Assembly: GCA_028285525.1 (NCBI GenBank)
Contig: JANQOZ010000005.1
Span: 1-64,000, forward strand
Origin: Lysobacterales bacterium
GTDB taxonomy: Bacteria > Pseudomonadota > Gammaproteobacteria > Xanthomonadales > SZUA-38
Reading direction: 5' to 3'
Length of the DNA stretch: 64,000 bases
In this document: positions 6,051 to 31,728 of the stretch, in pieces
Position numbering within the stretch: the stretch's first letter is position 1
How the letters are laid out: each line of letters begins with the position of its first letter
Translations under genes and position numbers: made by a program
Notes under the pieces: model-generated
What the model saw: the letters and a program-made list of their open reading frames with translations, nothing else
Databases searched by the model: none
Told to the model about the DNA's origin: nothing

Positions 6051-8924
6051 TCACTCAAAGCCGTCCTCGAAAATCAGGTCGCCCAACGGTGGCGGGTCGA
6101 TGCCGTTGCCAGCGATCGCAAACGTATAGGGGTTCTCATCAGCATCGGTGTTTGGAATCGTGACCAGACCGGTCACGCTGCCCGTCGATACCGGACTGAA
6201 GTCGACCGCGAAGGTCGTGCTTTGACCAGCGCCCAGCGATGACTCGCTGGGCTGGGTGACGCCAAACCCCGCGCCGAAGATTTCGATCGGACCGGGCAGA
6301 TTGATCGTTCCGGTACCGACGTTAGTGATCGTAAAGACGTTCGTTACCGGCGCTCCAAGCGACACATCACCGAAGTCGGTCGCGTCGGTAGTCGCCGGCG
6401 TGTTGTCGCCGACGACAATGCTTTGACCGTTGCCGCTGACGTCGATCTCCGGCACGACCCCGCTGGCGCTTACGGCGAAGCTGTACGGCGACTCGTCGCC
6501 GTCGTCATTCTCGATGCTGACGATACCCGTAGTCGGCCCCGTAGTTCCGCTGACAAAGCGCACATCGAAGGTCACGCTCTGGCCGGCTGCGATCGACGTC
6601 GTGGCCGGCTGCGCGGCAATTTCAAAGCCGGCGCCGGCAACGCTGATCGGTGCGGTAATCTCTATCGTTGACAGCGCGGTGTTGCTGACCGTAAAGGCAC
6701 GGGTCAGGCTCTGACCAATAACCACCTCTCCGAATGCCGTGCCGTCCTGCGCGGAAGGCGTGAGGTCGCCGTCAGCGATGCTGACGTTGTTGCCCTGGAC
6801 ATCGATTTCGCCGACCGCAACCGTGAAGCTGCCCAGGGTTGCGGCTGCGACCGGATTAGCGCCGGTGACGGCCGTATCGAATACCTCGGCGTCGTTGACG
6901 GCGATGGCGTATTCGCCGTTGTCATCCGCGTCCCAGCTACCGCCGGGTGCGCCCATCGTGTAGGTGACAACCGGTGCTGTCGGTGGCCCGGACACGGCAG
7001 CGTTGATAACGGTCAGCGGGCCGGGCGTGACCGTGATATCGCCGGTATCGAACTCACTCAGATCCACAGCTCCATCGATGTCGGTATAGGCGACGTCCAC
7101 CGTGTGGCTGGTCGCGCCGCCAACGGTTATGGCCTCGGCACCGCTGAGCGTTGCCAGCGGCGGAAAAAGATCGACGAACTCCACTGCACCGATGTCGCAA
7201 TCAGCGCTACCGTCAGCATTACCGTCGATCGGCCGGGGCATGCCGGTTTGATCTGTTGCCGGACAGTCGGTGTTGTCACCTGCATCGACCAGCGGGCTGC
7301 CAGTTTGCGGTTGATGAGTTGACGGCATACCTCGTGTCGACGCCAGCGGCCCCAAAACCGGATCGCCGGAAAGCATGTTCACCGCCAGCTGGCTGCAGCT
7401 TCCGTCCTCAATCAGATTGTTGTTGTTGACGGTCAGGGTTACATCGGTGTCGCAGTCAAGCGCCGATCCCGCGATCACGCTATTGCGCAGTTCCAACTCA
7501 TCAGCGTAGCTGATGCCCTCGGTGGAGTTATTCACGATGGTGCTGTTGGTTACGACACCCCTGGCAAGGTTCAAACCCGCTCCGCTGTTGGAAGACACTG
7601 TTGAGTTTGCCAGGACGAGTGGCGGGAAACCGGCCAGGGACCGAACAGCGGTCTGAACTGCGTTATTTGCGATCGTGCTGTCGGTAATCGTGGTGCCGTT
7701 ATAGGTAAGCAGCGCCTGCTGACCCACATTGCCATCAATCCCGCTGTTTTCGATCGTCAAGGCCGCGGGCGAATTGTCAAAGTCGGACAACTGAACGGCA
7801 CCGCCCGAGAGCGCGGCCGTGTTCGCCGCCAGGCTTGCCCCTTGAATAGTGACCGTATCTTCCGCGTATAGCGCGCCACCACTCTCACCGGCCTGATTCG
7901 ACGACAACACGGAGTCGATGACGGTGAGCGAGACGTCACTGCCTACATGGTGGAACCCACCACCCTTACCGCTAGCCGAATTGGAGTCCAGCGTTGAATT
8001 GGTCACGGTCGCATTGGTAAAAAGGAATGCTGCCCCGCCGCCATCACCGCCTGCGCTGTTGCCGCTGATGGTTGCCCCAGTAACAGCAACGGTGCCCGGC
8101 ATACCCACCTGGCCATTGGAGAAAATGCCGCCGCCGGTTCCCGTTGTGGCGGTGTTGAAACGAATGGTTCCCCCATCCACCGTCAGTTCAGCGGGACCAC
8201 TCAGGACGAGGTTGTGGAGGCCTCCACCGGAAACGGCATAGTTGTATTCAACGACGGTATTGTGCAGGGTCGCGGTCGCACCGGTTGGTCCTGCAAAGTT
8301 GGAGAGCGCTCCGCCGGTCAGGTTAGAGCTGTTGGACGTCAGCAGACTGTCTCGCACCGTCAGTTGGCGGGAGTTCAAGATAGCGCCACCGAGGCCACCC
8401 ACGCCGGCGCCTCCGAAGACTGCCGTATTGTTGGTCAAGGTGCAGTTGTCGATGGTGACTGCCTCGACGTTGGAGATCGCGCCGCCACTGCCGTTGTAGA
8501 CATAGCCATCGCGAAGCACCAGATCCCGCAGCGTCACGTTCAACTGCGACTGGTTGTCGAGATCGCTGATTCCAAAGATCCTCCACGTGTTCGCGCCCGA
8601 GACCGTGATGAAATCACGGCTCAAACCAGGCTGCCCCTCGATCGTGACCGATGACTCGATCTCGAGTTGACCTTGCTGCAGCACAATCGTCGCGCCGGAA
8701 AGGGATGGATCGAACTCGATGACGTCGTCACCGCTGCCCGCCGCGCATCCACCGGAGGCCGCATCAATGTTTGCCGCAGCGATTGCCTGACGTAACGTGC
8801 ACTGAAAAAGCACGATGTTGTCGCTGGCCGTGTCGACCGTGATCGTCGCGGCGTCGGTGCCGTGCATGGTCGCCAGCAGGGCGCCCGTAATCGCTGCGGG
8901 CAGCAGCCGACGTTGCGTTGCCAT
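6051..8924 (-). CDS. Secreted right-handed beta-helix protein with choice-of-anchor domains and DGFE tail
   Basis: I chose the ATG at 8924 (MATQRRLLPAAITGALLATMHG) because a signal peptide follows directly; an upstream ATG at 8966 adds 14 residues. The 957-residue product begins with a CSLREA-type segment (CTLRQAIAAAN). A parallel beta-helix of GGA(I/L)/TNNTA-type repeats follows, then a choice-of-anchor-Q-like region (GSPLVDAGDN...CDIGAVEF). Next comes a linker, then two tandem choice-of-anchor-D (ASPM/SPD-2/Hydin-like) domains with the GxG(F)xVxxP pattern. The protein ends in GDLIFEDGFE. It is probably a surface or secreted adhesin-like protein; no catalytic residues were recognised. Confidence 0.85.
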   Translation of the reverse strand: MATQRRLLPAAITGALLATMHGTDAATITVDTASDNIVLFQCTLRQAIAAANIDAASGGCAAGSGDDVIEFDPSLSGATIVLQQGQLEIESSVTIEGQPGLSRDFITVSGANTWRIFGISDLDNQSQLNVTLRDLVLRDGYVYNGSGGAISNVEAVTIDNCTLTNNTAVFGGAGVGGLGGAILNSRQLTVRDSLLTSNSSNLTGGALSNFAGPTGATATLHNTVVEYNYAVSGGGLHNLVLSGPAELTVDGGTIRFNTATTGTGGGIFSNGQVGMPGTVAVTGATISGNSAGGDGGGAAFLFTNATVTNSTLDSNSASGKGGGFHHVGSDVSLTVIDSVLSSNQAGESGGALYAEDTVTIQGASLAANTAALSGGAVQLSDFDNSPAALTIENSGIDGNVGQQALLTYNGTTITDSTIANNAVQTAVRSLAGFPPLVLANSTVSSNSGAGLNLARGVVTNSTIVNNSTEGISYADELELRNSVIAGSALDCDTDVTLTVNNNNLIEDGSCSQLAVNMLSGDPVLGPLASTRGMPSTHQPQTGSPLVDAGDNTDCPATDQTGMPRPIDGNADGSADCDIGAVEFVDLFPPLATLSGAEAITVGGATSHTVDVAYTDIDGAVDLSEFDTGDITVTPGPLTVINAAVSGPPTAPVVTYTMGAPGGSWDADDNGEYAIAVNDAEVFDTAVTGANPVAAATLGSFTVAVGEIDVQGNNVSIADGDLTPSAQDGTAFGEVVIGQSLTRAFTVSNTALSTIEITAPISVAGAGFEIAAQPATTSIAAGQSVTFDVRFVSGTTGPTTGIVSIENDDGDESPYSFAVSASGVVPEIDVSGNGQSIVVGDNTPATTDATDFGDVSLGAPVTNVFTITNVGTGTINLPGPIEIFGAGFGVTQPSESSLGAGQSTTFAVDFSPVSTGSVTGLVTIPNTDADENPYTFAIAGNGIDPPPLGDLIFEDGFE

Positions 8925-9022
8925 AATCCAGGCTCTGGCGAAGGTTGGCCTCCGATATCCGTACAAACGCGAATGCTTCGGTTCGGGATCAAGGGAACTG
9001 CCAAGAGGGTCATCCGACTACC

Positions 9023-9048
9023 GTCCCTGGGGGCTTGGCCTCGCCATC
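9023..9048. repeat. Dispersed repeat copy matching the interior of the tatC-downstream repeat
   Basis: gtccctgggggcttggcc and the following eight bases match 5925-5950 with two mismatches over 26 bases. The two copies flank the beta-helix gene in the same orientation. No inverted arms are seen around this copy. Confidence 0.6.
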
Positions 9049-9118
9049 GTTTTTCAGCTTATTCTGCTCGGTACCTTCATCGAGACCGGCACGGCGTTTG
9101 TTCAGGCGCTAGAAAAGC

Positions 9119-11173
9119 CTATTTTGATTCACCTGCATCGGATATCTCGCGGAGCATCTGATCGATGGAGACCCAGTCCGGATGCTCCCGATCATAGGCT
9201 GCCTCGATGACCGCACGTGACGCGGTCAGCAGCGGCATGGCCTCAGCATATCGTTCTCGCGACACCAGAAAACGCGCAAATCGTATCGTTAGGGCCGCGG
9301 TTTCCGGGTGGCCCTCTCCGTAGTGGCGGCCGGCCATGGCCACCGAATCGGACAGCAGCGAGTACGCTTCCTCGAACTCGCCGCGTCTTTCGGCCAGCCG
9401 CCCCATGCTGGCCATAACGGAGGAAAGCTCCGGATGATCGCCACCCCAGTAACCCCGCAAGATGGGCAGCGCCTCGCGAAAGCGCGCGGCGGCGAGATCG
9501 AGCTGGTTGGCCGACGTCAGGACCGTGCCGAGATTGACCAGCGTCCGGGCCACTACGTGATGGTCATCGCCAAACGCGTTTCGACGAATTTCCAACGCTT
9601 CCTCCAGCAACGCCGCCGCCTGGTCGAATTCGCGGCGCTGGTAAAACGGCCCGCCCAGATTTTCCAGGGCGATCGCAATGACCGGGCTGTTCTCCGGTAG
9701 CAGCACCCTCAGCATCGCTACGTAGGACTCGTAGTAGTCCTGCGCACGATCGAAGTTTCCCCGCAGCAGTTCGATGATGCCGAGGTGATTGAGGCTTTCG
9801 GCGACAGCCGGATGCGGGCTGCTGCCGTAGATCGCTTTCTGAATCTCCAGTGCCCTTAAGTTCAACTCGCTCGCCTCGTCATTCCTTCCCAGGGAACGCA
9901 CCATTGTTGCCAGATAAAAAGCGGCCTTTGCGGTCGCTTCATGCTGCATGCCCAACGCGGCCTCGCGAATGGCCAGCGCCCGGCGCAACAGCGATTCCGC
10001 TTCTGCGAACCGACCTTGCTCACCGTACACCTCATAGAGCGTCACCAGACTGTCGGCGACTCTGGCGTCCACTGGCCCAAAGAGTGCTTCGCGCATGGCC
10101 AGCGCTCGAAGCGCATCAGCTTCCGCCGCTTCCAGGTCGTTCCGGTAGATTTGCACCCGAACCAGCGCATCCAGGCTGGCCGCAACCTCCGCGTGCGACT
10201 CGCCCAGCTCCGCGATGCGCAGCTCGAGGCTTTGCTGTAGCAGCGGCTCGGCCTGCCCGAAAGCGCCCAGGCTCATGTAGACGAGCCCGATGGTCGACAT
10301 AAGCCGAGCCCTGACCAGCGGCTGACCGGCAAACTCACGCTCGATTCGCTGAGCGCCGTCATCGAGCAGCTCACGGGCGGTGATTTCCCGGCCCATCGCC
10401 AAACTTGGGTCTGAAACCTCGAACATGTCAACGAGGAAGTTCACCACCTCCTCAGCTTCGGCCTGCGCCTGCTCGGCGCGGGCCGAAGCCGCCAGCGCAT
10501 CGTCCCTGGCGAGCGACGCCTGCTGCTCCTGCTCGCGCGCCGCTGCGCGCTGATTAAGCGCGTAGACCGTGAGGCTGGTCATGGCCACCAGGGCCACGAG
10601 CGACGCCGCGAGAATGGCGGTCAACCGCTGGTTTCGCCGGGCCGCCTCGCGGCGAACGATTTCGTCCAGCCGCACGCCCAGCAATCCCGCAATCAGCTTC
10701 TGGAGAGCGGGTCCCTTGCCATCTCCTTCGGGGCGAGCGTCTGCCGCGAGTGGCTCTGCCTCCTGGAGCTGTGCGGTAGGGTCTGAGTCGATTCGCTGAC
10801 GCGCGGCCTCGGGAAAACTGCGCGACGGATCATCGATCAGCAGGTAATGAATGCGATCGGCCCTGCCAAGACTCTTAAACAAGCGAACTTCTTCGTTGAC
10901 CCAGCGTGACGCCGCCGAGCTGGCAGAGCAGATCACAATCAGATTGTCTGACGCGGACAACGCCTCTCGAATCGTGGCTGACAGATCTTCAGCGGTGGAC
11001 AGCTCGTCGCGATCCCGAAAAATCGGCAGTAAACGGTTTGATTCGAGATCATGATCTCGAACGATCCGGCCGGGGACGCGATAGCTTTCCAGGCGTCTGT
11101 GGAGCCAGACAGCCCAGGGCTCGTCCTGGTGGGCATAGCTGATAAACGCGCGATAACTTGGCGCTGAAGCCAT
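9119..11173 (-). CDS. TIR-domain, single-pass membrane, TPR-repeat protein
   Basis: 684 residues. Residues about 5-150 form a TIR-like domain: YRAFISYAHQDEPWAVWLHRRLE is the first strand and box 1, and SRWVNEEVRLF (W91, E94/E95) is the later helix where TIR NADases keep a catalytic Glu. A transmembrane helix at about 185-206 (LTAILAASLVALVAMTSLTVYAL) is followed by a short coiled coil rich in Ala/Gln/Glu. Ten or so TPR units of the TPR_10/TPR_12 type (LVxVQIYRNDLEAAEADALRAL style) then run to the C-terminus. Topology places TIR and TPR on opposite sides of the membrane if there is a single pass. It lies 60 bp downstream of a GspE-like ATPase gene. NAD cleavage or signalling is inference. Confidence 0.85.
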   Translation of the reverse strand: MASAPSYRAFISYAHQDEPWAVWLHRRLESYRVPGRIVRDHDLESNRLLPIFRDRDELSTAEDLSATIREALSASDNLIVICSASSAASRWVNEEVRLFKSLGRADRIHYLLIDDPSRSFPEAARQRIDSDPTAQLQEAEPLAADARPEGDGKGPALQKLIAGLLGVRLDEIVRREAARRNQRLTAILAASLVALVAMTSLTVYALNQRAAAREQEQQASLARDDALAASARAEQAQAEAEEVVNFLVDMFEVSDPSLAMGREITARELLDDGAQRIEREFAGQPLVRARLMSTIGLVYMSLGAFGQAEPLLQQSLELRIAELGESHAEVAASLDALVRVQIYRNDLEAAEADALRALAMREALFGPVDARVADSLVTLYEVYGEQGRFAEAESLLRRALAIREAALGMQHEATAKAAFYLATMVRSLGRNDEASELNLRALEIQKAIYGSSPHPAVAESLNHLGIIELLRGNFDRAQDYYESYVAMLRVLLPENSPVIAIALENLGGPFYQRREFDQAAALLEEALEIRRNAFGDDHHVVARTLVNLGTVLTSANQLDLAAARFREALPILRGYWGGDHPELSSVMASMGRLAERRGEFEEAYSLLSDSVAMAGRHYGEGHPETAALTIRFARFLVSRERYAEAMPLLTASRAVIEAAYDREHPDWVSIDQMLREISDAGESK

Positions 11174-27723: not shown

Positions 27724-27742
27724 TTGATCGCCTAAGAGTGGG

Positions 27743-27797
27743 GTCAGAGTAAAGGGTCAGAGTAAAGCGGCGCTTTACTCTGACCCTTTACTCTGAC
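27743..27797. repeat. Perfect 25-bp inverted repeat built from two gggtcagagtaaa units
   Basis: Left arm 27743-27767 and right arm 27773-27797 are exact reverse complements with loop cggcg. Each arm contains the 12-base unit gtcagagtaaag twice in tandem (13 bases apart, sharing gtcagagtaaag). It sits between the convergent gshA and lipoprotein genes. It could terminate both, and it resembles the tcagagtaaa-type repeats found beside REP-associated tyrosine transposases; no such gene is nearby. Confidence 0.9.
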
Positions 27798-27817
27798 TTC
27801 TGCCGTTTGCGCCCGGC

Positions 27818-28255
27818 TCAGTCCTCAAGTTTGACCATGCCGGCCTCTACCTCTTCGATTTTCCACACCACCAGCTCCCAGTCTTCCCGACGCGGGCTGT
27901 CGGCCTTGAGCCCGAGGAAATACCGGTAGCCTGACTGGAAGTTGACGGTGATCTCCTGCGGGCCGCCGCGGGACAGATCGCGAGTCAGGCCGGGTACCAG
28001 GTCACGGTTTACGATCCCTCGGGCACGGATGGTATGAACGCCGGGCTCGATCGGTCGCTGGCCGCGAGGATCGCGGATTTCCTGGTCGTCGATACGGTAG
28101 ATCTCTACCGGAAAAATCCGTTCCGCGCGTCGACTGACGTCGGTGAGAATCAGCGCATAGCGCTCACCGGCCATCGGTCCGGTGTCGGGGCCGGTGGCGC
28201 AGGCGGACAGCAGGGCGAGGCTCGGGAGTAAGAGCACCAGGGAAAACCGTTTCAT
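27818..28255 (-). CDS. Predicted lipoprotein, unknown function
   Basis: 145 residues from the ATG at 28255 (MKRFSLVLLLPSLALLSAC); an ATG two codons upstream is also possible. The signal peptide ends in a lipobox (ALLSAC), so it should be lipidated at that Cys and inserted in a membrane. The mature part is small and beta-rich, with no recognised domain. It is the third gene of a minus-strand set with a MotA/TolQ-like and an OmpA-like protein, and only 12 bp separate it from the latter. A role as a periplasmic or outer-membrane part of that machine is inference. Confidence 0.75.
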   Translation of the reverse strand: MKRFSLVLLLPSLALLSACATGPDTGPMAGERYALILTDVSRRAERIFPVEIYRIDDQEIRDPRGQRPIEPGVHTIRARGIVNRDLVPGLTRDLSRGGPQEITVNFQSGYRYFLGLKADSPRREDWELVVWKIEEVEAGMVKLED

Positions 28256-28267
28256 CGTCACCTCCGG

Positions 28268-29374
28268 TCAGCGCGCGGTGAGCTTGAGCTCAATGCGCCG
28301 GTTCCGCGCATAGGCCAGCTCGTTCTCCCGCGGGTCCAGCGGATGATACTGGCCGAACCCGGTTGCGGCCAGCCGCCGCGGGTCGATTCCGCTACGCTGC
28401 AGGTAGCGAACGATCGCGAGCGCCCGAGCCGTGGAAAGCTCCCAGTTCGAAGGGTAGGCCGGTGTGGTGATCGGCCTCACGTCGGTGTGCCCGTCGACGC
28501 GCAGCACCCAGTCGATATCGGCGGGAATCTGGCCTTCGATTTCTTTGAGAACGGCCGCGAGGCTCCGGACCTGGGCTTTCCCCTGATCCTCGAGCTCAGC
28601 CGAGCCGCTGGCGAACAGCAGCTCCGACTGGAAGACAAAACGATCGCCCTCCACCCGCAGATCGGGGTTCTCGCCGAGCGCCGCCTTGAGCCGACCGAAA
28701 AAGTCGGAGCGGTATTCCTTTAGTTCCTGCACCTGATTGGCCAGCGCGAGGTTGAGGCGCTGACCCAGGTCGGCGATCTCCGCTGCCTGATCCGTGTTTT
28801 GCTGTTCCGCGAGGTCGAGCGCGCTTGAGACCTCTGTGAGCTGCTGGCGCAGCGCCTGCAGCTGACGGTTGAGCAGGACCACCTGCGCCCGCGCCTCGTC
28901 GGTCAGCTCCGCTTGTACCGTGGTTTCCCGGCGGCTGGTATCGAGCGCGCCGGCGAGTTCCGCCACCTCAGCCTGCAGGGCGTCCCGCAGCTCGGTCAAC
29001 GCCGCCAGGTCGTTGTTGAGGGCGGCCACCGCCTCGGTGCTCTCGTCGAGGTTGGTCTTCGTCTGCGCCAGCTCGTCGCTGAGCTGACTGCGAGCGGCCT
29101 GCGTGGCGGCGAGCGTGTCGCTTAAGGTCGCCAGACGCTGGGTTAGGGTGGCGCTGGTGGACTGCTCCAGGGCCAGCATCTCGGTGAGTTCGGCGACCTG
29201 ACCTTCAAGCGCACTCAGAGCACGCTGCTTGCCGGTCAGCTCATCAGTTAGAAAGTACTGCCCCAGCGTAAACAGCAGGAGCACAAAGATCACCACCATC
29301 AGCAGCGCAGCAAGGGCGTCGACGAACCCCGGCCAGATGTCCAGCGGCCGCCGGCGCGCGAGGCGGGCGGACAT
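28268..29374 (-). CDS. MotB/OmpA-like membrane protein with long coiled coil
   Basis: 368 residues. A single transmembrane helix (about 16-38) carries Asp19 in FVDALAALLMVVIF, in the place of the ion-binding Asp of MotB, ExbD and ZorB. Residues about 48-215 form a long coiled coil rich in Leu, Gln, Glu and Ala. The C-terminal OmpA-like peptidoglycan-binding domain has LFASGSAEL, VDGHTDVRPI and ARNRRIELKL. Together with the TolQ-like gene 37 bp upstream it should form a stator-like ion-driven unit anchored to peptidoglycan. No flagellar genes are near, so flagellar MotB is unlikely. Confidence 0.85.
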   Translation of the reverse strand: MSARLARRRPLDIWPGFVDALAALLMVVIFVLLLFTLGQYFLTDELTGKQRALSALEGQVAELTEMLALEQSTSATLTQRLATLSDTLAATQAARSQLSDELAQTKTNLDESTEAVAALNNDLAALTELRDALQAEVAELAGALDTSRRETTVQAELTDEARAQVVLLNRQLQALRQQLTEVSSALDLAEQQNTDQAAEIADLGQRLNLALANQVQELKEYRSDFFGRLKAALGENPDLRVEGDRFVFQSELLFASGSAELEDQGKAQVRSLAAVLKEIEGQIPADIDWVLRVDGHTDVRPITTPAYPSNWELSTARALAIVRYLQRSGIDPRRLAATGFGQYHPLDPRENELAYARNRRIELKLTAR

Positions 29375-29411
29375 CAGCCTCGAAACCTCAGGCTAGCGAC
29401 AGGTCGCTTCA

Positions 29412-30404
29412 TCAGCGTTCCTCATACTCGGTCCGCTGACTGAGCGCTGCAGCCAGGGTGCGATTCAGCAGGCGCAGCTCGGAACGAAGATCATCCGACA
29501 GCTGGTCTTTGCTGACGTTTTGCCCGAGGTCGGCAATGCGGCGGTTGAGCGTGGCCAGCTGGTGATGCAGCTCGCTGCGATGGGTGGACTGATCACCGAG
29601 GGCGCGCTGCATGCGCTCCAGTCCGTCGGCGGTCTGTTCGAGGAGCGCCTGCACGTACGCCGGCACACCCGCCTCGCCGTCGCCCGGCAGCGCGCCGCTC
29701 GACAGGCGGGTCACGCTGGACAGCCATTCCTCGAGATCGTTGAAAAACCGGTTCTGGGCGTGGCCAGCCTGAAGATCGAAAAATCCCAGGATCAGCGAGC
29801 CGGCCAGGCCGAAAAGCGACGAAGAAAAGGCCACCGCCATCCCTGCCAGCGGCCCCTCGAGACCGGCCTTGAGTCGTTCGAAGACCGCCGGCCCAGCCCC
29901 ATCGGCGGGGTCCAGGCCGCCGATGATTTGACCGACGTCTCCGATGGTGAGGAGCAGTCCCCAGAAAGTCCCGAGCAGACCCAGAAAAATCAGCAGCCCC
30001 ACCAGATATCGCGTCACGTCGCGCGACTCGTCCAATCGGCTGCGAATGCTGTCGAGCAGCGAGCGCAAAGAGCCCGCCGACAGCGTGAACTGCCCGTCGT
30101 CGTGTCGCGCGAGCATCCGCGCCATCGGCGCCAGGAGATGGGTTTCCTCCCGACTTTTGCGGGCCGGGTTTTTCCGCCGGAACTCATCGATCCAGCGTGC
30201 CTCCTGATAAAGCGCGAGAACCTGGCGCAGCGTCACCAGCAGACCGATCACCAGGACGGCGACGATCACCCCGTTGAAGGCGGCGTTCGCCGTAAACGCG
30301 TTTTTCAGCGGTTCCAGTAATACCACCAGCAGCGCGGCCAGCGCAGCGGAGAAGGTCGCCATCCAGAACAAGGCGCGATGGGGGCGGGTGATCTTAAGAG
30401 CCAT
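29412..30404 (-). CDS. MotA/TolQ/ExbB-like proton channel protein
   Basis: 330 residues from the ATG at 30404 (MALKITRPHRALFW); 25 upstream codons lack homology. Transmembrane helices lie near 11-30, 41-62, 133-155 and 184-210. The last two carry LGLLGTFWGLLLTIGDV and GMAVAFSSSLFGLAGSLILG, the channel-lining hallmarks of the family. A C-terminal cytoplasmic coiled coil of about 90 residues follows. It is the partner of the OmpA-like protein downstream. The pair resembles ZorAB of Zorya defence and the uncharacterised MotA plus peptidoglycan-binding pairs of proteobacteria; no ZorC/D-like gene is present. Confidence 0.85.
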   Translation of the reverse strand: MALKITRPHRALFWMATFSAALAALLVVLLEPLKNAFTANAAFNGVIVAVLVIGLLVTLRQVLALYQEARWIDEFRRKNPARKSREETHLLAPMARMLARHDDGQFTLSAGSLRSLLDSIRSRLDESRDVTRYLVGLLIFLGLLGTFWGLLLTIGDVGQIIGGLDPADGAGPAVFERLKAGLEGPLAGMAVAFSSSLFGLAGSLILGFFDLQAGHAQNRFFNDLEEWLSSVTRLSSGALPGDGEAGVPAYVQALLEQTADGLERMQRALGDQSTHRSELHHQLATLNRRIADLGQNVSKDQLSDDLRSELRLLNRTLAAALSQRTEYEER

Positions 30405-30633: not shown

Positions 30634-31722
30634 TCAGGGCTCGCGTGGCGGGCCGAAGGTGGCCTTGGCTCGCAGCTTGTTTTCCAGCGCGCGGAGCGTC
30701 GGGGCGGCAGCCGCCAGCCGCTCGGCCCGGGTGCGCGGCGCTGAGACCCTGCCATCCTTTTCCGCCTGGCGGGCCAGCTGCGCGGCGTTGCGCTCGCTGC
30801 GCGACAGCCGGGGCCGGGCCGCAGGCTCAGGCGTTGCCTTCGCTGACGGATTGAGGGTCTCGCTGAAGGTGAGGTCGGAGATGCGTCGCCCGAAAGCGGG
30901 GAATCCGTCGCCGGTCAAATTGTCGCCGGGCGTATACCGTTCGGCGATGCCGTTCATCTGGTCGGTGCCGAAGTCTTCGCCGAAAACCACGTAGGCGAGA
31001 AATTCGTTGACGGTTTCCGCAACGACCACAAAAAAGATGTTTTCCACGGCGTCATACGAACCGGAGACTTCCAGGTTAGTGCCCGACCGAAGCCCCTCGG
31101 TGGTCGTTGCGACACCGGTGCCGATCACCAGATCGAGGGTCAGCAGGTCCGCCTCAAACGGCTGAACGTTCACGTCGCTCGGAAAACAGTTGTTGTTGAT
31201 CGGTGCGGTGCAGTCGGTCACGAAAATCCACTGGCCCTGCATGGCCAGATACGGGTCGTCGATCGACGGGGAATACCAGAAGCGCTGAATCGGAATCAGC
31301 TCACCGTCGATGAGCAGCTGACCTGTGGTCAGCGTCTCAAACGTAAGAGAAATCGGGCGGCCGGTGAACGTGCTCACCGGATCACGAAACGCGCAGCCCA
31401 GGCACTGACCGTCTTCAGAAAAGACGAGTTCGTCGTCAAAACGATAAGACACCGGCCCGGTGACGGTCGGCGTCAGAGTACCCAGAGCGCTGAACCACAG
31501 CGGTTCGCGAAGCGCCGCGTTCGCCTCATCCGTGTAGGTATAGATCGTCAGAAATACCTGGCGGTCCTGAACCTCGATGGCGTAGCCGCGGCCAGGCTGC
31601 TCCGGATTCCAGTAGAATCCGCTCTCCGGCACAAACGCCTGGGTGAAGACCTGCGCGGCGGCGCCGAAAGCGCTGAGCAGCAGGGCCAGACCGAGCAGCG
31701 TTGAGGTTCTTGAGAAAGCCAT
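30634..31722 (-). CDS. Secreted protein of unknown function
   Basis: 362 residues from the ATG at 31722 (MAFSRTSTLLGLALLLSAFGAAAQ), which gives a signal peptide; an ATG two codons upstream is equivalent. The mature N-terminus SGFYWNPEQPGRGYAIEVQDRQ followed by IYTYTDE is a pattern seen in many secreted proteins of Xanthomonadales-like bacteria, of unknown function. The C-terminal 70 residues are charged and low-complexity. Three Cys residues could form disulfides. It stands alone, 230 bp upstream of the TolQ-like start on the same strand. Confidence 0.7.
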   Translation of the reverse strand: MAFSRTSTLLGLALLLSAFGAAAQVFTQAFVPESGFYWNPEQPGRGYAIEVQDRQVFLTIYTYTDEANAALREPLWFSALGTLTPTVTGPVSYRFDDELVFSEDGQCLGCAFRDPVSTFTGRPISLTFETLTTGQLLIDGELIPIQRFWYSPSIDDPYLAMQGQWIFVTDCTAPINNNCFPSDVNVQPFEADLLTLDLVIGTGVATTTEGLRSGTNLEVSGSYDAVENIFFVVVAETVNEFLAYVVFGEDFGTDQMNGIAERYTPGDNLTGDGFPAFGRRISDLTFSETLNPSAKATPEPAARPRLSRSERNAAQLARQAEKDGRVSAPRTRAERLAAAAPTLRALENKLRAKATFGPPREP

Positions 31723-31728
31723 GGGCAC

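Follow-up and report, generated by a model that had tools for sequence, protein, structure and literature searches.

A conserved two-gene ZorAB-like pair is a probable stand-alone ion-driven motor of the cell envelope in many Pseudomonadota

A channel-like protein, a peptidoglycan-binding partner and a putative lipoprotein are encoded together in a Lysobacterales genome, raising the question of whether they form an envelope machine and, if so, of what parts and of what kind. The window analysed here is a 64,000-nucleotide stretch of contig JANQOZ010000005.1, and the first-pass annotation of it had proposed an ion-driven machine outside the flagellar and Tol systems, with the lipoprotein as its outer-membrane or periplasmic component. 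Three ORFs on one strand were found as described (Table 1), and the first of them, A, has the hydrophobic segments expected of a four-helix protein.

Table 1. Features of the locus, with positions counted from the first nucleotide of the window
Feature	Position	Strand	Description
A subunit gene	29412-30404	minus	330 aa; MotA/TolQ/ExbB/ZorA-like channel protein, four membrane helices
B subunit gene	28268-29374	minus	368 aa; PRK09039 family 'peptidoglycan-binding protein'
Putative lipoprotein gene	27818-28255	minus	lipobox and Shine-Dalgarno; outside the conserved pair
Perfect inverted repeat, ~26 bp	27741-27799		between the convergent gshA and lipoprotein genes
Secreted protein, family without a name	30634-31728	minus	upstream of A, same strand

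In the window, the copy of the pair is surrounded by parAB, rsmG, gshA, tatD, mnmE and yidC. Gaps of 37 bases between A and B and of 6-12 bases between B and the lipoprotein gene, together with the shared strand, make local co-transcription of the three genes likely. Longer ORFs with GTG starts are listed for A (to 30479) and for the lipoprotein (to 28261); both starts are probably too early, since ribosome-binding sites precede ATG 30404 and ATG 28255 (a perfect GGAGG in the latter case), and the sequence thus makes ATG 30404 the likely start of A. The inverted repeat is composed of three GGGTCAGAGTAAAG copies (hairpin z -9.4) and is probably either the end of both transcription units, as a two-way terminator, or a REP-type repeat. 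The secreted protein upstream of A is kept there in 4 of 4 genomes of the family (G000, the genome of the window, to G003; cluster cl5), and Pfam and NCBIfam searches with it gave no match. As these four genomes of a single family are the only ones in which it was seen, it is not claimed as a third component.

The lipoprotein ORF carries the lipobox LSAC, and its short intergenic gaps and shared strand in G000 and G001 are what a three-component machine with an outer-membrane partner would look like. Its distribution speaks against this. The gene lies beside the pair only in G000, G001 and G003, all of one family, and in G003 a divergent, opposite-strand gene separates it from B; in G002 and G012 it is found on contigs other than that of the pair, and in G021, a genome without the pair, it adjoins gshA. 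It was seen at none of the best 80 loci of the pair in the wider genome collection, and its co-occurrence with the pair among 41 relatives was not significant (5/11 versus 7/30; Fisher p 0.25). Several homologues lack the lipobox, and a lipoprotein profile searched against PDB sequences gave nothing better than E 0.33. From its confinement to these three genomes, its absence from the wider loci and its unlinked or pair-less occurrence elsewhere, the lipoprotein is a neighbour and does not belong to the conserved pair. It was rejected as a partner, and a machine built with it is very improbable; on the conservation of the three-gene set the first-pass proposal therefore fails, and the module comprises two genes.

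Those two genes are held together far more widely. B adjoins A in 78 of the 80 best loci, the remaining two being contig ends, with a median gap of 6 bases, and among the 41 relatives A and B occur in the same 11. A was found in 93 of 398 sampled Pseudomonadota genomes and always in one copy. In many Alphaproteobacteria the pair follows efp and an inositol-monophosphatase gene; in Sinorhizobium meliloti it likewise follows the inositol monophosphatase gene and is annotated as 'MotA/TolQ/ExbB proton channel family protein' and 'peptidoglycan-binding protein'. The pair was found in none of the phage records or viral contigs, and the plasmid records that carried it (5 of 72,556) were all Rhizobiaceae replicons of 3.5-4.6 Mb. 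This distribution is core-like rather than mobile, which argues for a housekeeping role and names no process. One match to A (G421:C2:75975-76748), in a 0.9-Mb genome, has two in-frame stops and looks decayed.

The assignment of A had to be made below the level of curated families. Its only annotation is 'MotA/TolQ/ExbB family', and no family model scored above its cut-off: PF01618 reached 14.9 bits against a gathering cut-off of 22.9, and the ZorA of locus L119 is similarly low with this model (16.3 bits). Hydropathy places the hydrophobic segments at residues 12-30, 41-59, 134-152 and 191-209. In a 56-row alignment the TM3 motif GLLGTFWG, with Thr146, and Ser196 of TM4 were invariant (56/56), so that four membrane helices, G-x-x-G-T in TM3 and a polar TM4 residue, the features of the superfamily, are all present. 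The AlphaFold2 (AF2) model (mean pLDDT 82.9) has long TM3 and TM4 helices followed by C-terminal helices at 249-329; these predicted cytoplasmic helices terminate in the conserved motif LRSELRLLNRTLAA. A strict pattern like LRxE(I/F)(R/K)LLxRTIAA was matched by 60 of 108 A members and variants of it by most others, with replacement of the motif in Rhizobiales- and Sphingomonas-type members. In VIA-align comparisons of the model, all leading rows were members of the MotA/TolQ/ExbB superfamily (Z 12.1 for TolQ, 11.6 for ExbB, 11.3 for ZorA and 9.8 for MotA), scores that helical bundles can reach by chance; the kinship of A is for this reason taken from motif and tree. Foldseek E-values were weak (best 1.7e-3), and a profile of A searched against PDB sequences matched coiled coils only. 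On its sequence features, A can be placed as a distant member of the MotA/TolQ/ExbB superfamily.

For B, a curated model was available. NCBIfam PRK09039 (NF006543) matched residues 4-368 with 438.9 bits (cut-off 305), and by this score B is a member of that family, which has a name without a function. Its single hydrophobic segment (residues 17-35) contains Asp19, invariant in 46 of 46 homologues, and its C terminus is a MotB-type OmpA domain (residues 240-367; PF00691, 9.6e-17) that matches MotB, MotS and PomB. One N-terminal membrane helix with an Asp and a C-terminal OmpA domain make up the MotB/ZorB-type layout, and the first-pass description of a peptidoglycan-binding partner with a membrane Asp and a long coiled coil was borne out in this respect, the coil being a long predicted helical stalk. 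In the AF2 model (pLDDT 83.9) a helix at 16-154 is followed by a break at 155-158, a second helix at 159-233 and the OmpA domain. The stalk of about 190 residues would span about 28 nm if fully extended. As a typical periplasm is shorter than this, the modelled stalk likely folds back at the break. A survey of non-flagellar stator homologues described their B subunits as without OmpA homology (PMC12505986); the A-B pair bears on that statement, to which the B family, like ZorB, is an exception.

To place the pair among named systems, a tree of the TM3-TM4 core was considered together with PADLOC profiles. The A family joins DUF802/ZorA3 proteins (support 88/85) and then ZorA (92/83), values to be read as moderate because the alignment has only about 128 columns and the branches are long. 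PADLOC matches were ZorB3 (1.9e-20, the top match for B) and ZorA1 (2.6e-11). By sequence, the nearest named relatives thus appear to be the ZorAB motors, chiefly those of Zorya III, and the ZorAB resemblance noted at first holds. Zorya III is marked by a DUF802-type protein encoded beside DUF3348 (ZorF) (PMC8565338, PMC11890865), and in the loci compared here DUF802-type proteins likewise stood next to DUF3348. It shares with the pair an OmpA-type B, and differs in the length of ZorA (about 610-840 aa, versus about 315-450 aa for A). PADLOC also includes ZorG/DUF2894 in the Zorya III locus; the genes flanking the window pair gave no PADLOC match to it. DUF802 (PF05650) was matched in L148 and not in A, although such a match is an imperfect marker, the DUF802-type relative L153 having none; the ZorA subfamily model NF033915 gave 23.1 bits with A (cut-off 100). 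Zorya types I and II also have a MotA-like A and a B with membrane Asp and OmpA domain, and the model of A aligns with ZorA structures; the pair differs from them in the absence of ZorC/D/E nearby, in lacking the long ZorA tail and in its core-like rather than patchy spread.

Such kinship invites a defence reading: the pair would be an anti-phage motor of the Zorya type, reduced or new, that senses infection at the envelope and runs, while an effector encoded elsewhere acts. Cloned Zorya III lowers plaquing (PMC8565338), and with the PADLOC and tree results this keeps an anti-phage role possible, whereas core distribution and the lack of an effector count against it. ZorF was found in 9 of 10 DUF802-type controls and in 0 of 20 pair-bearing genomes. 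Around the window pair, PADLOC found no ZorC/D/E/F/G, in agreement with the first-pass annotation as to ZorC/D, and only generic ABC and TatD matches among the flanking genes. ZorAB alone is insufficient for defence (PMC8565338), and Zorya has a patchy distribution (PMC11890865), unlike a pair with one copy per genome and kept synteny that is missing from the phage and viral records and from true plasmids. We regard the defence reading as unlikely, and automated defence annotation may label ZorAB-like pairs of this sort as defence genes. Zorya III genes (DUF802-type ZorA3 with DUF3348 ZorF) were seen in G004, G015, G023, G024, G032, G038 and G039. The pair is absent from the seven Zorya III-bearing relatives at order level, and the two never occur together in any of the 41 relatives (P 0.09, not significant); mutual replacement is possible.

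Flagellar stators are the other obvious comparison. MotAB, PomAB and MotCD share with the pair a MotB-type OmpA domain (SNWELS motif), a membrane Asp and a four-helix A, and the OmpA domain of B is nearest to those of MotB, MotD and MotS. The genome of the window itself has flagellar genes, with a cluster containing motAB elsewhere and a FlhA match; it also carries further MotA/ExbB-family genes. The first-pass view of a pair outside flagella and Tol is supported. FliM (PF02154) was not matched in this genome despite FlhA and motAB, and FliM may be very divergent in this lineage; since FliM alone missed these flagellar genes, FlhA was added as a marker. FliM went unmatched in 25 of 57 pair-bearing genomes, and in 16 of those 25 FlhA was unmatched as well. 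An auxiliary, MotCD-like flagellar stator would also not be expected to have an A that groups with ZorA-type proteins, away from the ten PF01618 proteins encoded in its own genome, flagellar MotA included, nor was any flagellar gene seen beside the pair; the B stalk of the pair is a further difference from these stators. That the pair serves the flagellum is consequently very unlikely. TolQR and ExbBD have the GLLGT Thr, the membrane Asp and, as far as the model of A shows, the four-helix fold in common with A-B; the OmpA domain and long stalk of B set the pair apart, and no TolA or TonB was seen adjacent. In the same genome, another motor-like locus was noticed (L175; G000:C80:30000-43000), in which a PF01618-type protein (ORF 6082-6909) is followed by two proteins (8321-9412 and 9409-10407) with an N-terminal SLSFLD membrane-Asp segment and a coiled coil.

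Taken with these comparisons, the evidence leads us to favour, as the probable reading, that the two proteins work together as a stand-alone inner-membrane motor of the MotAB/ZorAB kind, powered by ions, anchored to peptidoglycan and expected to be A5B2, and are a core housekeeping pair in many Pseudomonadota. The sequence comparisons show for it a membrane Asp, a Thr/Ser ring, an OmpA domain, obligate pairing, a single copy, absence from mobile records and no ZorF. In such a motor, a pentamer of A would enclose a dimer of B at its membrane helices, and ions would cross at the ring formed by Asp19 of B and Thr146-Ser196 of A, turning A around B. The stalk-borne OmpA domain would grip peptidoglycan, and work might be done between membrane and wall, on the B side, or be relayed through the cytoplasmic C-terminal helix of A. 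The 5:2 stoichiometry, rotation, the identity of the ion and a role in envelope maintenance are what we infer for the pair, and its function in the envelope is our best guess. A wall-gated ion channel or sensor would use the same parts differently: peptidoglycan strain would move the B stalk and gate ions, and the C-terminal motif of A would signal inside the cell. The short conserved motif and the very long, hinged stalk suit this alternative, which we nevertheless consider improbable, as the pair keeps without variation the catalytic ring typical of rotary 5:2 motors; we know of no channel-only member of the MotA/TolQ/ExbB superfamily.

Literature searches on PRK09039, on MotA/TolQ/ExbB proteins in envelope or Tn-seq contexts and on orphan ZorAB returned nothing on the pair, and no experiment, mutant, structure or study of A or B was found. 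Of the ion-driven envelope machine first proposed, the ion-channel-type pair thus stands, its function unstudied in searchable papers, and the lipoprotein part does not. The pair is present in single copy in around a quarter of the sampled Pseudomonadota genomes and is among the annotated genes of S. meliloti, yet no study of it was found. Should A-B work as an ion-driven motor, present accounts of the energy economy of the envelope lack a general element, and it becomes possible to test whether Zorya arose from a cellular motor.

A better candidate for a third component than the lipoprotein was seen in Rhodospirillales-type Alphaproteobacteria, where the gene immediately upstream of A encodes a secreted protein that combines a Pro-rich linker with an OmpA fold (60 loci, e.g. 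L075:5717-6913). This protein is without the usual GHTD motif, and loci of the Gamma-, Beta-, Rhizobiales-, Rhodobacter- and Sphingomonas types showed none next to the pair. It is possible, though short of probable, that A-B is an additional machine that energises the envelope alongside Tol, Ton and the flagellar stator: a core-genome pair, wall-anchored and rotary, that is the housekeeping sister of Zorya III and is joined in Rhodospirillales-type Alphaproteobacteria by this lineage-specific partner. If so, Zorya III would have branched off from a cellular motor of the envelope and been adapted to defence. As a minor observation, G158 has ORFs next to the pair (L170:8697-12563) that are made up of short repeats (CDLKGIVVWLH, SVTKQRFPSNHN) and are probably translated CRISPR arrays.
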